From assembly GCA_903861125.1 (NCBI GenBank), contig CAIOTF010000040.1:1-43496 (forward strand): DNA of 43,496 nucleotides, read 5' to 3'. How positions within the stretch are numbered: position 1 is the first letter of the stretch; every line of letters starts with the position of its first letter. The notes beneath the pieces are model-generated. The model saw nothing but the letters and a program-made list of their open reading frames with translations. It had not been told where the DNA came from and did no database searches. The position numbers and the translations under genes were made by a program. Below are positions 1 to 11,126 of the stretch, in pieces. Source of the stretch: an uncultured Ignavibacteriota bacterium (GTDB lineage: Bacteria > Bacteroidota > Ignavibacteria > UBA10030 > UBA8401).

Positions 1-491
1 AAAGGCACTAATCTTCACTGTTGTTTTTTCCGTGTTCATCCGTGTTCTTTCCGCGAAATCAGTGGTTAATATTTTTAAGAGCATTCACCACAGAAAAATA
101 CTGTAAAGGCACTAATCTTCACTGTTGTTTTATCCGTGTTAATCCGTGCTCTTTCCGCGAAATCCGTGGTTAATGTTTTAAGAGCATGCACCACAGAAAG
201 ACACTGTAAAGTTACGGATCTTCACTGTTGTTTTTTTCCGTGTTCATCCGTGTTCTTTCCGCGAAATCAGTGGTTAATGTTTTAAGAGCATTCACCACAG
301 AAAAACACTGTAAAGGCACTAATCTTCACTGTTGTTTTTTCCGTGTTCATCCGTGTTCTTTCCGCGAAATCAGTGGTTAATATTTTTAAGAGCATTCACC
401 ACAGAAAAACACTGTAAAGGCACGGATCTTCACTGTTGTTTTATCCGTGTTCATCCGTGCTCTTTCCGCGAAATCCGTGGTTAATGTTTTA
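1..491. repeat. Tandem array of ~104-bp repeat, five units
   Basis: Four full units (1-104, 105-207, 208-311, 312-415) and a fifth partial unit (416-491) lie head to tail. Each starts AAAGGCAC or a variant and ends CACTGT, and each contains the sub-repeat ATCCGTG two to four times. All five units carry the variant CTTTCCGCGAAATC, while the second array (4341-4717) carries CTTTCCGTGAAATC. There are no unique spacers, so this is not CRISPR. No open reading frame is convincing here. The array abuts ygeW and its last bases form the ygeW stop codon. The left end is cut by the window edge, so more units may exist. Confidence 0.95.
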
Positions 492-1676
492 TCTTCTCCC
501 GCTGTTGTTTTCAAGTAATTGTTTCATCTTTTCCGTCGGATTTTCCATACGGGTCAGGAACATCAGTGCTGCGATCACGAAGGGTTTATAACCGGCTTCC
601 GCGTACGTAGCCAAACGATATTTTTCAAAAACATCCTTCGCAACTTCCCCTTCTGCGCAGCTCACACCCGAAATATCCGCCGGAAGGCAATGCATATACA
701 ATGCTTCACCTTTTTTCGTCAATTTCATTTTCTTCTCATCACATTCCCAATTTTTGAACTTCGCGTTGTTGGCAAGACATTCTTTCTCAAGATCTTTCAA
801 TCCCGGTTTATCATTGCTGTTCAATAATACTGTTCTGCGCTGCATAACATTGAACGGTGCCCACGATTTCGGATAGACGATGTCGGCATTACTGAACGCA
901 GCATCCATACTATTGACGATCTCAAATTTTCCACCGGACTGCACGGATTGTTTCTTTGCTTGCTCGATCACATCGGGAATCAAACCATATCCTTCGGGAT
1001 ATGCAAGAGAAACATCCATGCCGAAGCGTGACATCAGACCAATAACTCCCTGCGGAACCGAAAGCGGTTTGCCATAGCTTGGTGAATATGCCCACGTCAT
1101 GGCAATTTTCTTGCCGCGAAGATTCTCCAGCGAACCGAAAGTATTCTTCAACTGCATCAGGTCCGCAAGAGCCTGCGTCGGATGATCAATGTCGCATTGC
1201 AGATTGACAACTGTGGGCCGCTGATGAAGTATCCCATTCTCATATCCTTCCTGTATAGCGGAACCGAATTCGCGCATATACGTATGGCCTTCCCCAAGAA
1301 ACATATCGTCACGGATTCCGATCACTTCTGCAAGGAACGAGATCATATTTGCAGTTTCACGGACCGTTTCACCATGTGCGATCTGCGATTTTTCTTCGTC
1401 AAGCTCGGAAAGACCGAGACCAAGCGCATTGGCTGCCGATGCATAACTGAATCGTGTGCGCGTAGAGTTGTCGCGGAAGATCGATATTGCGAGACCAGTA
1501 TCGAATGTACGGATCGACTTGCCTGCTTTATGCATATCCTTCAATAATTGTGCAACCGTCAAGACCGCTTTTATTTCATCCTCCGACCGGTCCCAGGTAA
1601 GAAGAAAATCTTTATTGAACATATTCGTCTTGAGGCTGCTCAGCGTGTTGAACTTTGTTTGAAATGCCTGTTGCAT
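489..1676 (-). CDS. ygeW: Knotted carbamoyltransferase YgeW
   Basis: A 395-residue protein of the aspartate/ornithine carbamoyltransferase superfamily, almost the length of E. coli YgeW (396). The carbamoyl-phosphate loop STRTR is at 71-75, HPTQ at 165-168 and HCLPAD at 329-334, so the carbamoyl phosphate site looks intact. The overall sequence pattern (FRDNSTRTRFSYASA, QRPTVVNLQCDIDHPTQ) is that of YgeW rather than ArgF or PyrB. The second substrate of the YgeW family is not established; its genomic home in E. coli is the anaerobic purine-catabolism locus, which agrees with the neighbours here. It is the last gene of the operon, 45 bp after the xdhD-like gene. AAAGGG lies just upstream of the ATG and supports the start. 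The stop codon falls in repeat array 1. Confidence 0.93.
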   Translation of the reverse strand: MQQAFQTKFNTLSSLKTNMFNKDFLLTWDRSEDEIKAVLTVAQLLKDMHKAGKSIRTFDTGLAISIFRDNSTRTRFSYASAANALGLGLSELDEEKSQIAHGETVRETANMISFLAEVIGIRDDMFLGEGHTYMREFGSAIQEGYENGILHQRPTVVNLQCDIDHPTQALADLMQLKNTFGSLENLRGKKIAMTWAYSPSYGKPLSVPQGVIGLMSRFGMDVSLAYPEGYGLIPDVIEQAKKQSVQSGGKFEIVNSMDAAFSNADIVYPKSWAPFNVMQRRTVLLNSNDKPGLKDLEKECLANNAKFKNWECDEKKMKLTKKGEALYMHCLPADISGVSCAEGEVAKDVFEKYRLATYAEAGYKPFVIAALMFLTRMENPTEKMKQLLENNSGRR

Positions 1677-1721: not shown

Positions 1722-4307
1722 TTATTGAGAAATCTTTTTTGCCGCCGGCGAATCTTTCATCGGCAGTTTGTAACGGCGGATACCGTCGAATTTATATAGT
1801 GCGCCGGCAACGGCTCCTGCGGTCGGCACAAGTCCGATCTCACCGACACCTTTCGCACCAAACGGTCCTTCGGATTCATGTTCTTCAACAAATATTACTT
1901 TTGTTTCCGGCATATCCTTAGCCCGCAATATCCCAAGGGAACGGAACTTGAATGATTCGGGAACGCCGTTCTTCAGCTTCAACTCTTCGGTGAGCGCATA
2001 GCCGAGTCCCATATGTATGGACCCTTCCATCTGCCCTTCCAGCAATTTTCTGTTTATGATCCTTCCGACGTCGTGCGCTGCAACGATCTTTTTTAGATGT
2101 CCGTTCTCATCAAGAATACAGACTTGCGTTGCAAAACCAAATGTCATATGAGTGATCGGTTTTTTCGTTGTGTCTTCGAGCGCCGTCGTGTAATCAATAA
2201 CTACTTCACCAAAATATTTTTTACCGGTTAGATCCGAAATCTTTTTGCCGGCATCAAGATCTTTTTTCATTTCCTGCGCTGCTTTGATCACGGCGCGGCC
2301 GCCAAGCACGGTTGCGCGCGAAGCTGTTGTCATTCCGCACGGTGTCGGCTGCGTTGTGTCGATGTCCACCCGGATATTTCTCGGATCAACGCCGGTCACA
2401 TCGCTGAAGAATTGAATCATCACCGTACAAAAACCTTGTCCCATTTCAGTGAAACCAGTGTTAATGGTGATCGTTTCGTCCGGATGAATTGTTGCGATCG
2501 CCTGGCCGTATTCCGGCATGCCGTTTCCTATGCCGACATTCTTTATTCCGCATCCGATGCCAACATATTTCGATGAATAATAGACATCCTTTACCGCCAG
2601 CAATGTTTTTTTGATTCCGACAGCCCGTTCAAAGACTTGTCCCGTGCAGAAGGTATCTCCGACATCAACAACATTTCTCCATCGAATTTCCCACCCATCG
2701 ATCCCGACTTTTTCCGCAAGGATATCCATCATTCCTTCAATGGCGAACGAAGCCTGGTTTGCACCGAATCCGCGCATTGCACCGCACGGAAGATTGTTTG
2801 TATAGACCGCTTTTGCTTCAACATCGGAGTGAAGAATATTATACGGACCGCATGCATGACCTGCAGCCCGTTCCAGCACTTTTGTTCCGACGGATGCATA
2901 CGCCCCTTTATCGCCGATCATCCGGGCGCGAACGGCCGTCAATTTTCCATTCGCATCACATCCAACGGTATATGTCATTTTGATCGGATGGCGTTTCGGA
3001 TGAAGACGGATGCTCTCTTCGCGTGTCAATGTTGCTTTCACCGGTTTGCCGACCAACAGTGATGCAAGCGCAACGTGTGCTTGTATGCTAAGGTCTTCTT
3101 TTCCGCCAAAAGCACCGCCATTGGTAATGAGCGTTACTTTCACTTTCTCTTCCGGTAATCCTAAAAACGATGCGATCTGTTTCCGGTCATCAAACACGCC
3201 TTGGCCCTGGCTCAGCACTTCAATGACACCGTCCTTTGGGAAGGCAACGGCACTTTCAGGTTCAAGGAATGCATGTTCAATCACTTGCGTTTCGAATGTT
3301 CTGGTTTCCACAAATGCCGAGTGTACCAAAGCCGAGTCCACATCGCCACGTTTGATGATTGAATTGGAAAGGAGATTTATGTGGTCCGCGTGGACTTGCG
3401 GAGCGTCCGGATTCAGTGCTTCTTCGGGATCGAACACGCCGGGAAGAATCTCGTATTCTAGTTTTATTTTTTCAACTGCGTTTCGGGCAGTACGATTATC
3501 GGTCGCAACAACCATCGCAAGCATATCACCGATGCAATGCGTGATCTCCCCTTCAGCATGAAGCAGAGGCCAATCATGATAAATTAATCCTTGTTTACGT
3601 TGCCCCGGAACATCGCCGGCTTTGATTACGCGTATAACACCCGGAATCCGTTCCGCATCCGAAGAATCTATCTTGTTGATTCTGATCCGTGGATGCGGTG
3701 AGAAAAGAAATGCAGAGTACATCATTCCAGGCATTGTAATGTCATCGATAAACGGACGTTCGCCCATCGCAAATTTTTCGCCGTCCATTTTCGGAAGGCT
3801 TGTGCCGATCTTCCCCGAATAATCCGGCTGGGGAAGCGGCACTCCGTTAAATGCCTTGGCGGCAAGTTCAATCGCATCCACGATCTTTACATATCCGGTA
3901 CAGCGGCAGATGTGATTGTTCAAAGCGAATGAGATCTCTTCCCTGCTTGGAGTCGGATTCTTTTGGAGCAGACTCTTTGCACGCATCACAATTCCGGGAG
4001 TGCAGAATCCGCATTGTGTTCCGGCGGAGAGTACAAATGCCTTTGCAAAGATGTTCCGTTCTTTTTCGTCAAGTCCTTCGAGTGTTATAACGTTCTTCCC
4101 CTGCATATTTTTTGCAGGAACCGCACATGATGCGACCGCCTTGCCATCAACGATAACAGTGCAGCAGCCGCATGAACCTTGCGGTGCGCAACCGTTCTTC
4201 GGAGAGATCAGTCCGGCCTGCTCGCGCAGAACATCCATCAAAGACATATTCTCTTCAAGCGCCGCTTCGAATTCTTTCCCGTTCAATGTAAATTGCAATG
4301 GATTCAT
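1722..4307 (-). CDS. xdhD: XdhD-like molybdenum hydroxylase ([2Fe-2S] plus molybdopterin domains)
   Basis: An 861-residue xanthine dehydrogenase family protein. Residues 1-155 hold a plant-type [2Fe-2S] domain (Cys40, 46, 49, 61) and an alpha-helical [2Fe-2S] domain (Cys99, 102, 134, 136). Residues 165-861 are the molybdopterin-binding part, with GGAFGGKE at 397-404, MRGFG at 511-515, EMGQG at 621-625 and GVGEIG at 820-825, where Glu823 is the expected active-site base. Glu404 and Arg512 occupy the positions of the two purine-contacting residues of bovine xanthine dehydrogenase (Glu802, Arg880), so a purine substrate is plausible. There is no FAD domain between the halves; E. coli XdhD has the same layout. 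No in-frame TGA suggests selenocysteine; selenium, if used, would be the labile cofactor type. The ATG has no clear ribosome-binding site and follows repeat array 2. Confidence 0.92.
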   Translation of the reverse strand: MNPLQFTLNGKEFEAALEENMSLMDVLREQAGLISPKNGCAPQGSCGCCTVIVDGKAVASCAVPAKNMQGKNVITLEGLDEKERNIFAKAFVLSAGTQCGFCTPGIVMRAKSLLQKNPTPSREEISFALNNHICRCTGYVKIVDAIELAAKAFNGVPLPQPDYSGKIGTSLPKMDGEKFAMGERPFIDDITMPGMMYSAFLFSPHPRIRINKIDSSDAERIPGVIRVIKAGDVPGQRKQGLIYHDWPLLHAEGEITHCIGDMLAMVVATDNRTARNAVEKIKLEYEILPGVFDPEEALNPDAPQVHADHINLLSNSIIKRGDVDSALVHSAFVETRTFETQVIEHAFLEPESAVAFPKDGVIEVLSQGQGVFDDRKQIASFLGLPEEKVKVTLITNGGAFGGKEDLSIQAHVALASLLVGKPVKATLTREESIRLHPKRHPIKMTYTVGCDANGKLTAVRARMIGDKGAYASVGTKVLERAAGHACGPYNILHSDVEAKAVYTNNLPCGAMRGFGANQASFAIEGMMDILAEKVGIDGWEIRWRNVVDVGDTFCTGQVFERAVGIKKTLLAVKDVYYSSKYVGIGCGIKNVGIGNGMPEYGQAIATIHPDETITINTGFTEMGQGFCTVMIQFFSDVTGVDPRNIRVDIDTTQPTPCGMTTASRATVLGGRAVIKAAQEMKKDLDAGKKISDLTGKKYFGEVVIDYTTALEDTTKKPITHMTFGFATQVCILDENGHLKKIVAAHDVGRIINRKLLEGQMEGSIHMGLGYALTEELKLKNGVPESFKFRSLGILRAKDMPETKVIFVEEHESEGPFGAKGVGEIGLVPTAGAVAGALYKFDGIRRYKLPMKDSPAAKKISQ

Positions 4308-4340: not shown

Positions 4341-4717
4341 TTCATCCGTGTTCATCCGTGCTCTTTCCGTGAAATCCGTAGTTAATATTTTTAAGAGCAT
4401 TCACCGCAGAAAGACACTGTAAAAGCACTGAGCTTCACTGTTGTGTTCATCCGTGCTAATCCGTGTTCTTTCCGTGAAATCCGTGGTGAATGTTTTTAAG
4501 AGCATTCACCAGAAAGACACAGTAAAAGCACAGATCTTCACTGTTGTTTTTATCCGTGTTCATCCGTGTTCTTTCCGTGAAATCCGTGGTTAATGTTTTT
4601 AAGAGCATTCACCACAGAAAGACACTGTAAAAGCACAGATCTTCACTGTTGTTTTTATCCGTGCTAATCCGTGCTCTTTCCGTGAAATCCGTGGTTAATG
4701 TTTTTAAGAGCATTCAC
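4341..4717. repeat. Second array of the ~104-bp repeat, four units, inside the operon
   Basis: Units are 4341-4420 (5' truncated), 4421-4523, 4524-4628 and 4629-4717 (3' truncated). They are clearly related to the array at 1-491 but share their own variants (CCGTGAAATC, AAAAGCAC). The array fills the 356-bp gap between ygfK and xdhD and runs 54 bases into the ygfK reading frame, giving its last 17 codons and stop. The transcript toward xdhD and ygeW must either read through the array or start in or after it. Confidence 0.95.
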
Positions 4718-6664
4718 AAAATGAACACGGTCTGTTTTCATAATTCCATGCAGCAAAGAATTCATCACATAATAATACCGCATGTCGATTACTAAATGGG
4801 CATTACCGGAGGCATCAAGAATTTTGTTAGTTTCAGGATGTAGTGTTACGTGGACCGCATTATACCTGAATTCACTTTTGCTGCCTTGTTTATCGTAATG
4901 CAATTCATATTCATGGCTATTGAAACGTCCATAAAGAATAGCCTTGTTTCCATTGAACTGCAAAACAAATCCGCTCAAAATGTTCCATTTTTTGAACGAT
5001 TCCAAAGAACCAAAGAATCTCGGCTTTTCAATATATGGTCCGCCATCTTCCGGACAAAACACATCGCAATTGCCGCATTCATTGCATGCATCGGCATAAT
5101 TGCCTATCTGATGTCTTTCTTTTATTGACAGATGACCGCCAACGATTTCCTTCCATCCGTGAACTGTTACTTCAACATTATTGAAATCAATTTCAATCGG
5201 TTCGGTCTCAAAATAGAAATTTGCATCATTCGGACAAACCGGGATGCATTTATCGCAATTAATGCAATCGAATAACTGCAGAGTGCTTCCGATCTTCCGC
5301 GGTGCAGTTTTGTTGTTGGAAAAATGATACCGTGGATTTACAGTACTTTTCGCGACAAGTACTGTTGTGTTATGAATAATCGCCGATTGAACATTCTCAC
5401 TTTTACATCCGGAACTGTTTGCCGTACGAATGATAAAGTCATCAATCGTTTTGGCACCCAGTGTTCGCATCGCCTCCTCAAGATTGGTCAGATATTTTGG
5501 CAATCTTCCATAGCCACCCGGACGGAGGAGATCAGTACACGTTGTGACGGGGACCAGGCCAATGGAAACACAATCAGCAAAATTATTTGCATCAACGCCG
5601 GCAGAAAAAGAAACGGGAAAACTTCCGCCGAAGATTTTCCGCCAATCATCTACCAGGGAAAGATGCAGAAGATGAAGCGGCTGTCCGGAAAGATATTGGA
5701 CCTTGTCTTTAAGATATTTTCCGTTGTTCACCACTTCCAGCGTATTGCCGAATTTCACACCGATTGTTTTTCCGGTTTGCGATGCAATGTTTTGCAGACG
5801 TTTCACCATTGCCACCGCATCATCAAAGGGAATATTGAACTCGTACGCTTTGGGATTTACAACTATATCCGTGTATCCAAGTGTTTGATACAGCAGATTT
5901 TCAAGACGATCTTTGCCGAGCATCGGCGGATTCATCTTAACAACAACGTGGAATCCCATCTCACTTAATAAATATTCACAAATCCGTTCGATCTCATCAG
6001 CCGGCGTTCCATGAAACGTGGAGAGTGTGATACTGTCCGATATTTTTTTGCTGAACGGCAGGTCACGATACTGTTTGAATTCATCGGGTATCTCTGCACG
6101 CAGTTCATCGATAAGCGCGGAGGCATCTTTCATTGTTTGCAGCCATGACCGCATTTGCGAAGACCGGAGACCCGCAAGATCGTACCCCACACTAACATCG
6201 AAGATCGTATCGAATTGTGACGGCCAGAAATTTGAATTTGGCAGATCAAGAAAGAGCCAATGCTTCAGTATCTCCACCATCATTCGTGCTTTAACATATT
6301 CTTTCGCCGATTCTTCAAGACGCAGTTCCTGCGACCATTCCGTATTATAGCCGACCGTTGCCATATCAATACAGGGACGTGCAATTTCAAGCCGGTCTTT
6401 TATTTGAACGGTCTTCAATTCGATGATTCGGGAACCGGCAAGCCAAGAGAGAGCGATATTCTGCGCCAGTTGAGTATGGGGTCCGGCAGCGGGGCCGACG
6501 GGATTTGCAGCAGGATTTCCGCAGGAGACTACTTTTAGATTGCTTTCGGCAACAGGAGAATAGAATTTTCGTGACGGCAGATCGAAGATCGCATTGGTCT
6601 TCGTGTATTCGTAATACATTCTTCGTAAAAGAGTGTGGAATGATATCGGAAAGAGTTCTGCCAT
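4664..6664 (-). CDS. ygfK: YgfK-like Fe-S oxidoreductase lacking the central flavin/NAD(P)H domain
   Basis: The first ~440 residues match the N-terminal dihydroorotate-dehydrogenase-like half of E. coli YgfK (for example GPAAGPHTQLAQNI at 57-70, RIIELKTVQI at 79-88, TDLLRPGGY at 377-385). Residues 465-540 form a double [4Fe-4S] ferredoxin domain (Cys467, 470, 473, 477 and Cys527, 530, 533, 537). The GltD-like FAD/NAD(P)H module that lies between these parts in E. coli YgfK (1032 residues) is missing, which explains the length of 666. The likely role is electron transfer linked to the XdhD-like hydroxylase; this is inference from the locus. The final 17 residues (from Val650) are translated from repeat array 2 and are probably not native. 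It lies 64 bp after ssnA. No Shine-Dalgarno site is evident. Confidence 0.85.
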   Translation of the reverse strand: MAELFPISFHTLLRRMYYEYTKTNAIFDLPSRKFYSPVAESNLKVVSCGNPAANPVGPAAGPHTQLAQNIALSWLAGSRIIELKTVQIKDRLEIARPCIDMATVGYNTEWSQELRLEESAKEYVKARMMVEILKHWLFLDLPNSNFWPSQFDTIFDVSVGYDLAGLRSSQMRSWLQTMKDASALIDELRAEIPDEFKQYRDLPFSKKISDSITLSTFHGTPADEIERICEYLLSEMGFHVVVKMNPPMLGKDRLENLLYQTLGYTDIVVNPKAYEFNIPFDDAVAMVKRLQNIASQTGKTIGVKFGNTLEVVNNGKYLKDKVQYLSGQPLHLLHLSLVDDWRKIFGGSFPVSFSAGVDANNFADCVSIGLVPVTTCTDLLRPGGYGRLPKYLTNLEEAMRTLGAKTIDDFIIRTANSSGCKSENVQSAIIHNTTVLVAKSTVNPRYHFSNNKTAPRKIGSTLQLFDCINCDKCIPVCPNDANFYFETEPIEIDFNNVEVTVHGWKEIVGGHLSIKERHQIGNYADACNECGNCDVFCPEDGGPYIEKPRFFGSLESFKKWNILSGFVLQFNGNKAILYGRFNSHEYELHYDKQGSKSEFRYNAVHVTLHPETNKILDASGNAHLVIDMRYYYVMNSLLHGIMKTDRVHFVNALKNINHGFHGKSTD

Positions 6665-6728: not shown

Positions 6729-8033
6729 TCATGGGACCGTCTCCATCATTTTGATCCACATTTTTTTTGATTTTGCCTGTGCTTCGGAATATATTTTTTC
6801 AACATCCATTCCTGCAACCGTGCGGTCTTTTACGACCCATTTCCCGCCGACCATAACAGATTCAACATTGGCAGAGCGCATACCAAACAGATAATGACCA
6901 AGGAGATTCTCTGCCGTTATTGGTGTCGGCGTAGTATAATCCGACACGATCAGATCGGCTGCGGAATTTTTCGCCAGTGTTCCAATCTGCGCGCCGAAGA
7001 TCTCCGATGCGCATTGCTGTCCGCCCGTAATCAGCCGTGAGAAATCTATGTTTTGCTTATGTTGAGAATCCCGGCGTTTGAAGAAAGCGATCTTTGCCTC
7101 TTCGATCATATCCGAAGGAAAGCCATCCGTTCCTATCATGCCGCGATTTTTGAATAGATGGACCGGTGCATAACCAACCATATTATTCATATTTGAACGG
7201 GGATTATGTGCAAGCCATGTTCTGGTCTTATTCAGATGGGAGTACTCTCGTTGCGATAGATGGATACAATGAGCAAGAATTGATTTGTTTGTTAAAATCT
7301 TTGCACGGGAAAGACGGTCAATAATGCTGCAATGATATTTTTTTCGGGCATCCGCAACATCACACAAATCTTCTGCAACATGAATGTGAACGCCGGTTCG
7401 ATGAGTTGATGCCACTTCGCCGCACAGAGAAAGCGACTCATCACTCATGGTAAATGATGCATGTGCACCGACAAGTCCGCGGAACAATGTATTGCTGCTG
7501 TTCGCAGCGATGAACCTGTCGTTCTCGGCTATGCCTTCATTGCGCCGCTTCTTTCCGCCGCGGTCAGTCACCTCATAGCACAATACTCCCCGTAATCCGA
7601 CCTTTGACATTGCTTCTTTAATAATATCAAGTGAACCATTAATTGCATTCGGCGATGCGTGATGATCGATGATGGTTGTCGTACCATTTTGAACAGCCTC
7701 AATTGCACCGACGAGTGCACTATAATAAATCGTTTCTTCATCAAGTGCCCGATCCAGTTTCCACCACACTTTTTTCAGGATATCAAGAAAATTTTTCGGA
7801 GGGGTTTTGGGCGGCGGCATTCCGCGCGATAGAGATGAATACAAATGTGTATGGGCATTCACCCATCCGGGAAGAACAATTTTTCCCCGAAGATCAACTA
7901 TTTTTTCGGCAGGGTGAGATGCGAGACCCTTTCCGCGTTCAACAATAATACCATCGCTGATCCGCAGATCAACCGTTTCCATCATACTAGGATAGAGAGT
8001 GCAAACAACGCTATTTTTAAGAATGATCTTCAA
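6729..8033 (-). CDS. ssnA: SsnA-type amidohydrolase
   Basis: A 434-residue metal-dependent hydrolase of the amidohydrolase superfamily, close in length to E. coli SsnA (442). The metal motif NAHTH is at 59-63, further ligand candidates are His216/His218 (HIHVAED) and His255 (LAHC), and the catalytic Asp is probably Asp303 (GTDG). C-terminal strands complete the composite beta domain. SsnA is related to guanine deaminase and other aminohydrolases; in purine-catabolism loci it is thought to act on a ring intermediate, but the exact substrate is not established. The start is a TTG at 8033, only 2 bases after the stop of the upstream PLP-enzyme gene, so translation is probably coupled. Confidence 0.9.
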   Translation of the reverse strand: MKIILKNSVVCTLYPSMMETVDLRISDGIIVERGKGLASHPAEKIVDLRGKIVLPGWVNAHTHLYSSLSRGMPPPKTPPKNFLDILKKVWWKLDRALDEETIYYSALVGAIEAVQNGTTTIIDHHASPNAINGSLDIIKEAMSKVGLRGVLCYEVTDRGGKKRRNEGIAENDRFIAANSSNTLFRGLVGAHASFTMSDESLSLCGEVASTHRTGVHIHVAEDLCDVADARKKYHCSIIDRLSRAKILTNKSILAHCIHLSQREYSHLNKTRTWLAHNPRSNMNNMVGYAPVHLFKNRGMIGTDGFPSDMIEEAKIAFFKRRDSQHKQNIDFSRLITGGQQCASEIFGAQIGTLAKNSAADLIVSDYTTPTPITAENLLGHYLFGMRSANVESVMVGGKWVVKDRTVAGMDVEKIYSEAQAKSKKMWIKMMETVP

Positions 8034-8035
8034 GA

Positions 8036-9319
8036 CTATTTTAACTTCCGTGATGCAAGAATAGACGTTAATGCTTCCAGTGTGGGGGATAAACTGATCG
8101 GATCTCCGACCGCTTGTTTTGCAGATTGAATATCTTTCAATCCGTTACCGGTAACCATTACCAGCGCAGATTCATCCGGCAAAATAATTTTTTTCTCAAG
8201 AGCACGTTTCAATCCGGCCGCGGCCGTTACACCCGCAGGTTCACCAAACACGCCGCCGAGGCGCGCGGTGGTTTTCATTGCTTCAAGAATTTCGTCGTCA
8301 GAAACTGTGATCATTTCTCCGTGCGACTGTTTGATCTGTTCAATCGCTCGACGCCAATTACGCGGGGTGCCGACCGCTATACTGTCTGCAATAGTATTTG
8401 TATCCGTTGGAACAAGATCGGTGCCGGACATGAATGCATTTACCATAGCCTTTGCACCTTCTGCCTGAACACCAAGCAGCCGAGGAACACGGTCGATGAA
8501 ACCAAGCCGTTTCATCTCCTGCAGACCTTTCCCAATTCCGCCGATCGTGCAACCGTCTCCAACTGAAACCACCACCCAATCAGGCATATCGTCGGCACAT
8601 TGTTCGGCAATTTCCAATCCTGCCGTCTTCTTCCCTTCAACTAAAAATGGATTCGTTCCGCTATTACGGTTATACCATCCGAACTGTTCACAAGCTTCAC
8701 GGCAAAGATCGAATGCGTTCTCATACGTTCCCTGCACCTTCAGGACCGTGGCACCAAACACCAACAGCTGCGTAATTTTCGGTTCGGGTGCGCGCTGCGG
8801 GACGAAAATATAGCTTTGCAAACCTACGGCGGCTGAAAGACCGGCCAGAGATGATGCGGCATTTCCTGTTGAAGCACACGCGATCGTATCAAATCCGAAC
8901 TCGATGGCTTTTAATACCCCAATGGAACTTGCACGATCCTTGAATGAATTTGTCGGATTCCGGCCATCATCTTTAATGAATATTTTTTTTATGCCAAGAT
9001 GCGATGCAAGCCGCGGAACATTATACACCGGAGTCCAGCCGACATGTAAATGCGGGAGCTGGATTTCTTGCGGAATTGGAAGCAGTTCTTTATAACGCCA
9101 ATGGTTAAATTTTCGGGTTTGAAGAGATGCCGCAGTAAGTAGTTTTTTTATTGAATCGTAATCGTATTGAACATCGAGAATGCCTTCGATACCGCATTTC
9201 GGACAGGTTTGGATATTACCGTACTCAAATTGATTTCCGCAGACGAAACACTTCAGACCGGTAACAAACGGCGACGGCGGATAGTGATAATCTTTTTGAT
9301 TCAAAAATACATTCTGCAT
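8036..9319 (-). CDS. Threonine-synthase-like PLP enzyme with N-terminal zinc ribbon
   Basis: A 427-residue fold-type II PLP enzyme. Residues 20-48 hold a zinc-ribbon (Cys24, Cys27, Cys39, Cys42) as in one group of ThrC proteins. The PLP lysine is Lys127 in NPTNSFKDRA, and STGNAASS is the phosphate/substrate loop. By sequence alone it would be called threonine synthase. However, it is the first gene of a purine-catabolism-type operon and sits where E. coli has ygeX, which encodes another fold-type II PLP enzyme (2,3-diaminopropionate ammonia-lyase). No hom or thrB is nearby. A role on a purine-derived amino acid is therefore possible but is inference; ordinary threonine synthase remains the alternative. 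Confidence 0.85.
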   Translation of the reverse strand: MQNVFLNQKDYHYPPSPFVTGLKCFVCGNQFEYGNIQTCPKCGIEGILDVQYDYDSIKKLLTAASLQTRKFNHWRYKELLPIPQEIQLPHLHVGWTPVYNVPRLASHLGIKKIFIKDDGRNPTNSFKDRASSIGVLKAIEFGFDTIACASTGNAASSLAGLSAAVGLQSYIFVPQRAPEPKITQLLVFGATVLKVQGTYENAFDLCREACEQFGWYNRNSGTNPFLVEGKKTAGLEIAEQCADDMPDWVVVSVGDGCTIGGIGKGLQEMKRLGFIDRVPRLLGVQAEGAKAMVNAFMSGTDLVPTDTNTIADSIAVGTPRNWRRAIEQIKQSHGEMITVSDDEILEAMKTTARLGGVFGEPAGVTAAAGLKRALEKKIILPDESALVMVTGNGLKDIQSAKQAVGDPISLSPTLEALTSILASRKLK

Positions 9320-9452: not shown

Positions 9453-11126
9453 TTGATCCAAGCATCTGCGATACATCAACGCTGGCAGAAAGCCGCCTTG
9501 CTCGGAAGCGTATGGGCTTCACTCGAGATCGTGGTAGGCAGTTTTCTCCATAACATGACATTCCCATTCACCGGCACCATCCTTTCGGGATTGGGAATAG
9601 CTTTACTGATCGCCGGACATTCTTTATGGAAAGAGAGAGGTATCGTATGGAGAGCCGGTCTCATCTGCGCCGTTATGAAATCCGTTTCACCAAGTGCAGT
9701 GATCTTCGGTCCTATGATCGGCATAGCAGCCGAAGCATTCATCGTTGAGATTGCAATCAGAATGCTCGGAGCAAATGCATTCGGTTACATCATCGGAGGG
9801 GCTATTGCCTGTACAACACCGATCATTCAAAAAACGATAGCATATCTTTTCACCTACGGAATGGACGTTGCGTTATTATTCGGCAAATTAGTGGAATTCG
9901 CATCGAAGAGTGTAAAGACTACTACGCTTGGTCCGGCCGATGTCATTGCCGCCGTTATTGGCATCAACCTTATCTGGGGAGGCATTTCGGGCGTTGTCGG
10001 CATGAAAGTAGGCAAAAGGGCCGCCATAATTTCCGAATCGGGTCAATCCAACATGCCACGGTCCGTGCAACGATCGAACTTCCTGGACGATGCCGGGATT
10101 CATTTCTCCGAACTATTACTTGCCGCTCACCTAATTGTTCTTTTGTTCGGACTTGTTTTTCAATCGTTGTTTTTTCTTCTTTATATTCCCTTTTGCTTTT
10201 ACCACTATCAACAGGTACGCAATAAATTTCGCCGTTGGATATTCTGGGTTGAGATAGGAACAGTTTCGGTCTTGGCCGGGATCGTCCTTGGAGAATTCGT
10301 GCTGGCAGACCGGACCACAGGTATCCTCATCGGCCTTCAGATGTTCTTCCGGGCGGTCTTTGTTGTTTCGACTTTCACTGCTATCAGCGTTGAACTGCGA
10401 AATCCCGTAATATTGAATTATCTGTTCAAGCGGCGCATGAAGAATTTTTCTCTTGCGATCGATGCGGCCTTCGGAGCTTTACCATCCATTATAGACTCCT
10501 TACAGCAGGAAAAGACATTCTTCCGGCATCCAATTGATTCGCTGTCAAGGATCCTCTCCCACACAAATGAGATTTATAAACAACAACTGCCGGCATCCAA
10601 CGTCTTTATTTTGAGCGGAGAAAAAGGAAGCGGTAAAACGAGTCTGCTGCTGGAACTACTTCCTGAATTAACGGTGAACAAAATTACTGCCGGCGGAATT
10701 TTGCAGCTAGGATTGTGGAAAGAGGGGACGCGGTATGGATATGATCTTCTCAATATTGAAACCGGCACCGTTGTGCCACTGTGCCGAACCGATGCTCCCG
10801 ATTGGGGAATCACAGCCGGACCATTCAAGTTTTTCCCCGAGGCTTTCCGGCTTGGCAGAACTGCTCTGTCGCAGTCTGCGGTCGGGAAATGCGACGTTGT
10901 CATTATTGATGAAATCGGTCCGCTTGAGTTCGATGGAAATGGTTGGGCAGATTCTCTTGCTGAGATTCTGCAAAGCTATTTTGGGACGATCATTATCGTT
11001 GTTCGCAGTTCCAGCATTGATGATATCATCAAGAAATTTGAAATTTCCCCTACTGCCATTTGGAATACCCCCAACATTACCGCAGCCGATATTTTGAATC
11101 AGCTAATACCGATCCACGAAAAATGA
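9453..11126 (+). CDS. Fused membrane protein: ECF S-like and EcfT-like domains plus THEP1 NTPase
   Basis: A 557-residue protein with three parts. Residues ~13-190 have about five or six hydrophobic helices and resemble an ECF-transporter substrate-binding (S) component. Residues ~218-350 are a second membrane block whose end (GLQMFFRAVFVVSTFTAIS, 294-312, then an amphipathic stretch) looks like EcfT/CbiQ. Residues ~383-557 are a THEP1/NTPase_1 P-loop domain: Walker A GEKGSGKTS at 389-397, the family pattern around ITAGG (411-415), and Walker B VVIIDEIGPLEF at 482-493. No ABC-type signature is present. It lies divergent to the purine-type operon. Roles could be uptake of a purine, molybdate or another cofactor, or cofactor maturation; none is proven. 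The TTG at 9453 is the best available start; the next in-frame ATG (near residue 35) would cut the first helix. Confidence 0.75.
   Translation: MIQASAIHQRWQKAALLGSVWASLEIVVGSFLHNMTFPFTGTILSGLGIALLIAGHSLWKERGIVWRAGLICAVMKSVSPSAVIFGPMIGIAAEAFIVEIAIRMLGANAFGYIIGGAIACTTPIIQKTIAYLFTYGMDVALLFGKLVEFASKSVKTTTLGPADVIAAVIGINLIWGGISGVVGMKVGKRAAIISESGQSNMPRSVQRSNFLDDAGIHFSELLLAAHLIVLLFGLVFQSLFFLLYIPFCFYHYQQVRNKFRRWIFWVEIGTVSVLAGIVLGEFVLADRTTGILIGLQMFFRAVFVVSTFTAISVELRNPVILNYLFKRRMKNFSLAIDAAFGALPSIIDSLQQEKTFFRHPIDSLSRILSHTNEIYKQQLPASNVFILSGEKGSGKTSLLLELLPELTVNKITAGGILQLGLWKEGTRYGYDLLNIETGTVVPLCRTDAPDWGITAGPFKFFPEAFRLGRTALSQSAVGKCDVVIIDEIGPLEFDGNGWADSLAEILQSYFGTIIIVVRSSSIDDIIKKFEISPTAIWNTPNITAADILNQLIPIHEK

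Follow-up and report, generated by a model that had tools for sequence, protein, structure and literature searches.

A single-chain S-T-NTPase membrane protein proposed to import the molybdenum cofactor in an uncultured Ignavibacteriota bacterium

The molybdenum cofactor (Moco) is proposed here to enter some bacterial cells through a protein that joins, in a single chain, a membrane module resembling the S-components of ECF transporters (S), a second membrane module (T) and a THEP1-type NTPase (N). On the strength of sequence comparisons, we assign a probability of about 0.78 to the reading that this protein is the inner-membrane part of a Moco uptake (salvage) system, the cargo being Mo-molybdopterin or possibly metal-free molybdopterin. 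Its gene lies at positions 9453..11126 of the forward strand of the window, that is, the whole stretch of 43,496 nucleotides analysed, which comes from an uncultured Ignavibacteriota bacterium. The system is probably the first known for bacterial uptake of external molybdenum cofactor. A search of open-licence papers yielded no bacterial Moco importer, and a 2022 paper states that uptake of exogenous Moco has been neither examined nor observed outside Caenorhabditis elegans, and poses as a question how Moco crosses membranes (PMC9793310).

The distribution of the gene among related genomes supports this reading. Homologues of the fusion were found in 28 of 100 related genomes, own genome included, with 56-95% identity within genus and family; the first fusion set comprises 26 of them, leaving aside one with a lone 160-aa NTPase (G041) and one with split genes (G043; G and L numbers denote our genomes and loci). 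These genomes were compared for MoaA, MoeA, MoaE, ModB, the xanthine dehydrogenase (XDH) family (PF02738) and Molydop_binding. An XDH-family gene is present in all 26 fusion genomes versus 48 of the 74 others, while MoeA is found in 2 versus 49 (p 1.4e-7), MoaA in 2 versus 48 (p 4.4e-7) and MoaE in 1 versus 38 (p 5.7e-6). For genes of the DMSO-reductase type, 43 of 55 matching genomes were selected by hand according to where the match starts and how long the frame is; their presence is not linked significantly to the fusion (12 of 26 versus 31 of 74, p 0.82). Once two genomes with the fusion in pieces on different contigs (G063 and G092) are added, the 74 genomes with XDH divide into 26 with the fusion only, 41 with MoeA only, two with both (G032 and G060) and five with neither (p 7.9e-13), and the association persists with one vote per genus and state (p 1.5e-6). 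In genera g11 and g33 the fusion and the pathway swap; in g18 and g21 a genome has either both the fusion and XDH or neither of them. This division indicates that the fusion replaces the biosynthetic pathway in the related genomes, where carriers have a molybdenum hydroxylase and mostly lack Moco biosynthesis genes.

Chance absence through incomplete assemblies was considered and rejected, given that the window's own genome is 100% complete and that the split holds in the 56 XDH-bearing genomes of at least 90% completeness (18 fusion only, 35 MoeA only, two both and one neither, the last being G063, afterwards found with the fusion in pieces). Two XDH loci are present in the own genome, in which neither MoaA nor ModB exceeds its cut-off and the thresholds applied gave no match to MoaE or MoeA; its second XDH locus (L144) contains YqeB-, MocA-, XdhA- and YgeY-like genes, with the MocA-like gene beside XDH. 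The five genomes with neither gene are 89% (G001), 71% (G019), 79% (G062), 70% (G083) and 69% (G096) complete; G062 has MoaA, G096 has MoaA and MoaE, and in G001 the contig stops inside ssnA, short of the position of the fusion in sister genomes. As for mixed cases, G060 has the fusion together with the whole Moco pathway and ModB, and G042 has the fusion and MoaA without MoeA or MoaE.

Two other cargoes have to be weighed at this point. Import of the metal alone (molybdate, tungstate or a metal chelate) could take the place of ModABC if molybdopterin were made by unrecognised enzymes. ModABC and other molybdate importers also serve molybdenum enzymes, and PMC5317091 places a Moco riboswitch upstream of a predicted molybdate transporter. 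DUF364/DUF4213 genes, annotated for putative heavy-metal chelation, also lie near the fusion in 8 of 80 loci, and ModB exceeds its cut-off in only one of the 26 fusion genomes versus 11 of the 74 others, although this difference is not significant (p 0.18). On the other hand, these importers are proteins unrelated to the fusion, whose carriers mostly lack molybdopterin synthesis genes, and metal import cannot compensate for the joint absence of MoaA, MoaE and MoeA from most fusion genomes. A pure molybdate importer was rejected because the pterin pathway is missing too, and we regard metal import in any form as improbable. Import of a form that precedes Moco, such as metal-free molybdopterin, cPMP or a nucleotide form, is a possibility of a higher order, with the odds still clearly against it. 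Genome G032 has the fusion, MoeA and a MobA-like gene, with neither MoaA over the cut-off nor MoaE, as import of molybdopterin predicts, and may import that compound; moreover, the MocA/MobA-like genes kept in several carriers argue against a dinucleotide form. Against a precursor stands the loss of both MoaE and MoeA from most fusion genomes, which would make cPMP useless and leave metal insertion without a known enzyme. With both enzymes absent from most carriers among the related genomes, the cargo is most likely finished Mo-molybdopterin; the molybdopterin case overlaps the second option of the Moco uptake reading, so the likelihoods of the two do not add.

The pattern is weaker in the phylum. 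In a sample of 395 genomes, an S match was obtained in 38, and the 140 genomes with XDH comprise 17 with S and no MoeA, 11 with both, 102 with MoeA only and 10 with neither (p 2.3e-8), figures from a search that scored at most eight candidates per genome and may have missed copies. Near the XDH genes read in four of those ten (G107, G263, G354 and G402) there is no S gene. MoeA occurs in 14 of the 38 genomes with S, which suggests salvage alongside synthesis in some of them, and 10 of the 38 have no XDH-family gene. The phylum-wide sample fits the uptake reading less well than the related genomes do.

Regulation offers a further line of evidence. The Moco riboswitch (RF01055 of Rfam) scores over the gathering threshold upstream of the S-T-N gene in three of a first 20 sources, 14 of the S-T-N and six of the N-S-T order (L006, L008 and L012, from genomes G032, G054 and G042). 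Among 20 further sources it was found in eight, which are all of the strong stand-alone S genes (L172-L179; XDH is present in all eight genomes and MoeA absent from five), and at none of the eight N-S-T and four S-T sources. Another ten sources, six of them preselected by a match to the model R1 described below, gave five: L078, L105 and L116 with S-T-N genes, L035 with an N-S-T run and L051 with a split S gene; the score at L108 is under the gathering threshold. In L035 the riboswitch precedes a run that starts with TonB receptor-like reading frames (by BLAST clustering) and contains an N-S-T gene, and the order riboswitch, S, T, TonB receptor recurs in genomes of the window's class.

A search model, R1, was made from 11 of the RF01055 copies at family genes and run on 154 sources (2.48 Mb, in which some loci are represented twice; L038, L059 and some others lie outside the scan). 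It gave 18 matches at 17 distinct places, the one in L070 repeating that in L048, and every match directly precedes a gene of the family or a run containing one, with 16 measured gaps of -13 to 358 bases (the gene start being assumed in L116). As the sources were picked as family loci, these matches show placement and not a genome-wide rate. By type, they fall in five of 79 GTDB loci (L060-L138), three of 12 S-T-N relatives (L039-L050; one locus is common to both groups), one of 16 N-S-T loci and no S-T gene. The riboswitch is thus the exception among fused copies, and the window has none by RF01055 or R1, so that membership of its gene in a Moco-riboswitch regulon does not hold; this is counted against the uptake reading. 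It is also worth mentioning the weaker second S-like genes of about 200 aa in L197 (3582-4274), L198 (15888-16469) and L199 (4852-5436), which have no riboswitch match and may be S paralogues for another cargo.

In the window, the gene faces a run transcribed divergently from it on the reverse strand. The nearest member is a threonine synthase-like PLP enzyme (8036..9319, by Pfam and NCBIfam), followed by the SsnA aminohydrolase (6729..8033, over the NCBIfam cut-off), a short YgfK-like protein (4664..6664; 411.9 bits by NCBIfam, below the cut-off of 835), a selenium-dependent xanthine dehydrogenase of XdhD type (1722..4307; 975.5 bits, over the NCBIfam cut-off), which is a likely user of the cofactor, and the YgeW carbamoyltransferase (489..1676, over the NCBIfam cut-off). 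The same divergent block adjoins the fusion gene in L039 and, as far as its contig extends, in L038. The YgfK-like protein has only 666 aa, and its best stretch spans positions 5-404 of a model with 1012 positions; similarly short copies (656 and 676 aa) are found in L038 and L039. Genes similar to the threonine synthase-like one, which neighbours ssnA in the window, stand beside XDH genes in L146, L150 and L156, and a 1151-aa reading frame of L145 includes such an enzyme.

This divergent arrangement in three loci would agree with import of a purine, hydantoin or related substrate of the xdhD/ssnA products. That idea was rejected, and we give it hardly any weight, because relatives adjoin other molybdenum enzymes, such as members of the DMSO-reductase family with NrfD; in addition, some relatives are under the Moco riboswitch and the distribution tracks the missing Moco pathway. 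For instance, L049 has a DMSO-reductase-family enzyme with ferredoxin, NrfD, rhodanese and MobA-like genes near the relative, identified by Pfam; clustering shows comparable genes of the ferredoxin, NrfD or rhodanese type in L041, L047 and L050, and in L199 a molybdopterin oxidoreductase with a TAT signal and ferredoxin-type proteins come directly before the run of S, T and receptor. TonB-dependent receptors follow the S-T-N gene in L042 (by Pfam) and in L044 and L048 (by clustering), and the S-T pair in L199 (by Pfam) and in L197 and L201 (by sequence reading). The window's copy has no adjacent TonB receptor, which is likewise counted against Moco uptake.

Neighbours within 7 kb were also counted for 80 loci through BLAST comparison with selected references, at a threshold of 1e-10 (one row, L081, being read in the wrong frame). 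A molybdenum-related gene (XDH, DMSO reductase, YgfK, SsnA, YqeB/XdhC or MobA/MocA) occurs in 23 of the 80, and in 14 of the 29 having 7 kb on both sides; a TonB receptor occurs in 10, a DUF364 protein in eight, and a Moco biosynthesis or Mod gene in none. A preliminary description of this DNA had linked the gene to molybdenum-enzyme loci, and that tie stands, in the window as in relatives beside such enzymes; the point it proposed to check, that homologues always lie beside genes of the xdhD/ssnA type, is not supported by these counts. Its alternative of transport or cofactor maturation can be narrowed to Moco uptake, since carriers with molybdenum hydroxylases mostly lack MoaA, MoaE and MoeA and a riboswitch accompanies some homologues. 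Regarding minor neighbours, the DUF364/DUF4213 gene is adjacent and co-directional in six of its eight loci (among the eight is L086, 8657-9475) and its product is a possible partner in molybdenum or Moco handling. A methyltransferase-like gene adjoins the fusion in some loci (L091, 9166-9954; L117, 5936-6703), and in L212 (5485-8215) ABC genes with weak similarity to ModB and ModC end less than 1 kb upstream of an N-S-T gene.

The protein itself is encoded by a reading frame of 557 amino acids with a tentative TTG start; upstream of this codon the frame stays open, giving 608 aa. Its hydrophobic segments fall between residues 14 and 315. An AlphaFold2 model of the whole fusion, built from a 13-sequence alignment (mean pLDDT 79.8, pTM 0.57), has helices at residues 9-196, 220-352 and 360-378, followed by an alpha/beta NTPase. 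This last domain (residues 383-557; 10599..11126, on the forward strand, as are all features of the protein below) is a member of the THEP1/NTPase_1 family (PF03266) by profile score, fold and motifs. Pfam NTPase_1 matches residues 385-530 with an E of 1.1e-17 and 64.9 bits, against a cut-off of 23.9; the modelled domain aligns with THEP1 (1ye8) at a VIA Z of 18.0 (rmsd 2.7, 161 residues aligned), and Foldseek with the whole model returned, at E 0.001 or better, only two THEP1-type chains. A motif scan locates Walker A, GEKGSGKT (residues 389-396; 10617..10640), and Walker B with the catalytic glutamate, VVIIDE (residues 482-487; 10896..10913). The NCBIfam equivalog NF010248 (PRK13695 NTPase) is not reached (70.1 bits, against a curated cut-off of 156), and all that NCBIfam gave for the fusion protein is a THEP1 match under the cut-off, together with weak matches to P-loop models.

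The Walker A pattern is present in 70 of 76 aligned sequences (the window's and 75 homologues) and LSGG[QE] in none of the 76, LSGG and SGGQ being absent from the window's protein too. Residues K395, D486 and E487 are 98% conserved over 77 rows, one of which, L081, is in the wrong frame; this alignment of the window with the 80 best loci left out L059, L076, L091 and L109. The ABC-type ATPase with LSGGQ that marks an ECF transporter is therefore not found, its place being taken by PF03266. The NTPase also has a weak similarity to MobB (E 0.059 in the window and 0.0071 in L195), which, together with the XdhC/YqeB and MocA-type genes among the neighbours, would suit a protein that sits in the membrane and matures or senses molybdenum hydroxylases without transporting anything, its NTPase being a handling domain like MobB or CobW. 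A maturation factor would not substitute for the biosynthetic pathway, and the resemblance of the fold to S-components and the TonB receptors encoded in shared gene runs speak against this reading as well; we consider it very unlikely.

The S module, as proposed for the Moco importer, occupies residues 7-196 (9471..10040), and its resemblance to ECF S-components is supported by a fold match of the model and by weak Pfam matches. Among the matches listed, the best relative of the membrane part is 5edl, an ECF S-component that we take to be YkoE (VIA Z 13.7, rmsd 6.8, 174 of 197 residues aligned); this Z ranks above the P-loop rows that follow and is close to the level of about 13 at which VIA warns for helical bundles. 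PF09819, presumably the YkoE family, and PF09605, which we assume to be S-component-related, each match weakly in 4 of 27 S modules, with best E values of 5.2e-4 and 2.1e-4, respectively; the Pfam cut-off, given for member 1 alone, is 28.7 bits, against a score of 16.6. For residues 1-340 there is no match in Pfam with an E of 1 or lower, nor in NCBIfam with an E of 0.1 or lower, a single-sequence phmmer search gave a best E of 0.13, to an unrelated protein, and against PDB sequences the S-module profile found no match and the membrane-part profile only matches at E 1.5 or worse. In a 35-row alignment covering both domain orders, the invariant residues of S are W11, G18, E25, G29, H33, P38, K76, S79, P80, P87, M88, I91, G136 and G176. 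The best-conserved motif, KSVSPSAVIFGPM (residues 76-88; 9678..9716), is a candidate substrate site.

The T module, the membrane and coupling part (residues 217-379; 10101..10589), is delimited by the model and by alignments, and elsewhere in the class it is encoded by a gene of its own; its R300 is invariant in the aligned forms. Its profile (A7) found no EcfT chain among PDB sequences, with matches only at E 1.5 or worse, and the stand-alone T of L195 has no Pfam match; among the VIA matches listed for the whole model there is no EcfT chain, which is not evidence of absence. The preliminary description had seen a fusion of S-like, EcfT-like and THEP1 parts, with intact Walker motifs and no ABC signature, and had proposed a comparison of the predicted structure with those three folds. 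The comparison sustains the THEP1 and S-like parts and the motifs agree; a second membrane part is there, and its likeness to EcfT is not borne out by any match. With an S-like part, a second membrane part and a non-ABC THEP1 NTPase, the protein is probably, as had been suggested, an undescribed transporter type.

Similar features can be recognised in known systems. ECF transporters (S-component, EcfT and EcfA/A'; for instance those of folate or thiamine) also combine an S-type membrane module with another module in the membrane and one that hydrolyses nucleotides, either fused or separate, and carry cargo of the cofactor type, as the fusion family would. They differ from the fusion in the motor, which here is a THEP1-type NTPase without ABC signature, and in T, which has no detectable EcfT match; moreover, the window's version is one chain. 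Lacking an ABC ATPase, the fusion is not an ECF transporter by membership, but it may work like one. With the THEP1/NTPCR nucleoside-triphosphatases (PF03266) it shares a C-terminal domain that is a clear member; the THEP1 of known structure consists of one domain only, and its role in vivo is given as unknown (PMC1079890), whereas the fusion joins the NTPase to membrane modules.

The family of the fusion is widespread and has no curated model. A GTDB contig scan gave 456 related stretches, with homologues 31-39% identical in records of several phyla, and the titles of the best 80 of the 456, which were retained, include Ignavibacteria, Bacteroidales, Acidobacteria, Elusimicrobia, Desulfobacterota-type, Neomarinimicrobiota, Gemmatimonadetes and KSB1 bacteria. 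The homologues show two domain orders, S-T-N as in the window and N-S-T (about 480 aa), which among related genomes (L031-L057) are circular permutations of each other. A single S-module profile (35 sequences, 14 invariant columns over both orders) also finds S-T proteins and stand-alone S genes. The S-T proteins, of about 330-370 aa, were read in 16 loci of the window's class and, in a few cases, of the wider phylum; eight of these have a separate NTPase of 151-159 aa beside them (L201, L203, L205, L208, L222, L224, L225 and L227). In all eight of L195-L202, from the window's class, stand-alone S genes of about 200 aa are followed by T genes of 181-202 aa, and Pfam assigns the NTPases encoded apart in L195 and L203 to NTPase_1. 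The arrangements are thus S-T-N, N-S-T, S-T (in some cases accompanied by an N gene) and three genes; as the modules are found fused, permuted and separate, they recombine as expected of a transporter. We lean somewhat towards a general class of non-ABC, THEP1-powered, ECF-like importers with split, fused and permuted modules, dedicated to Moco by way of a TonB receptor and the inner membrane.

The proposed mechanism would proceed as follows. In several relatives the cofactor would first pass the outer membrane through the TonB-dependent receptor of the same gene run, under expression controlled by the Moco riboswitch, also in several relatives. The S module would bind it at the outer face and the T module would connect S to the NTPase, whose hydrolysis of ATP or GTP would reset S in the manner of ECF transporters, with a non-ABC motor; the toppling cycle is borrowed by analogy from the mechanism of those transporters, as described in PMC7145868. 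Inside the cell, a MocA/MobA-type nucleotidyltransferase and XdhC/YqeB-type proteins would complete the cofactor and insert it into recipient enzymes of the XDH or DMSO-reductase families. We infer the direction of transport, the exact substrate and the coupling to hydrolysis; the domain make-up, the modularity, the distribution complementary to Moco biosynthesis and the riboswitch or TonB receptor of some relatives can be read directly from the genomes.

Salvage of vitamin B12 by BtuB-BtuCDF follows a comparable plan, with a TonB receptor and an inner-membrane importer under a cofactor riboswitch in genomes without biosynthesis genes, as PMC5317091 describes; the relatives of the fusion are similar, except that their cofactor would be Moco and that the importer is not the BtuCD ABC transporter. 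Dietary uptake in C. elegans is another parallel, since external Moco is used there by cells unable to make it, as proposed for carriers of the fusion; it differs in that the nematode's transport route is given as unknown in PMC9793310. In a marine bacterium, mutants in two molybdopterin synthase subunits fared better in mixed culture, which the authors read as cross-feeding (PMC10041152); this hints at a sharing of Moco or one of its precursors. If the general class of Moco importers described above exists, numerous bacteria, in this phylum and in others, would be Moco auxotrophs living on what their neighbours release, and Moco would be a shared good, as vitamin B12 is. The family would provide the missing Moco importer, a cellular role for THEP1-type NTPases and an example of an ECF-like importer with a different motor. 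Elsewhere in the window, between 25684 and 37618, genes for a TonB-receptor plug protein, FecR, DUF4876, DUF6850, BNR repeats, an ABC ATPase and DUF4857 form a run that looks like a separate uptake system.
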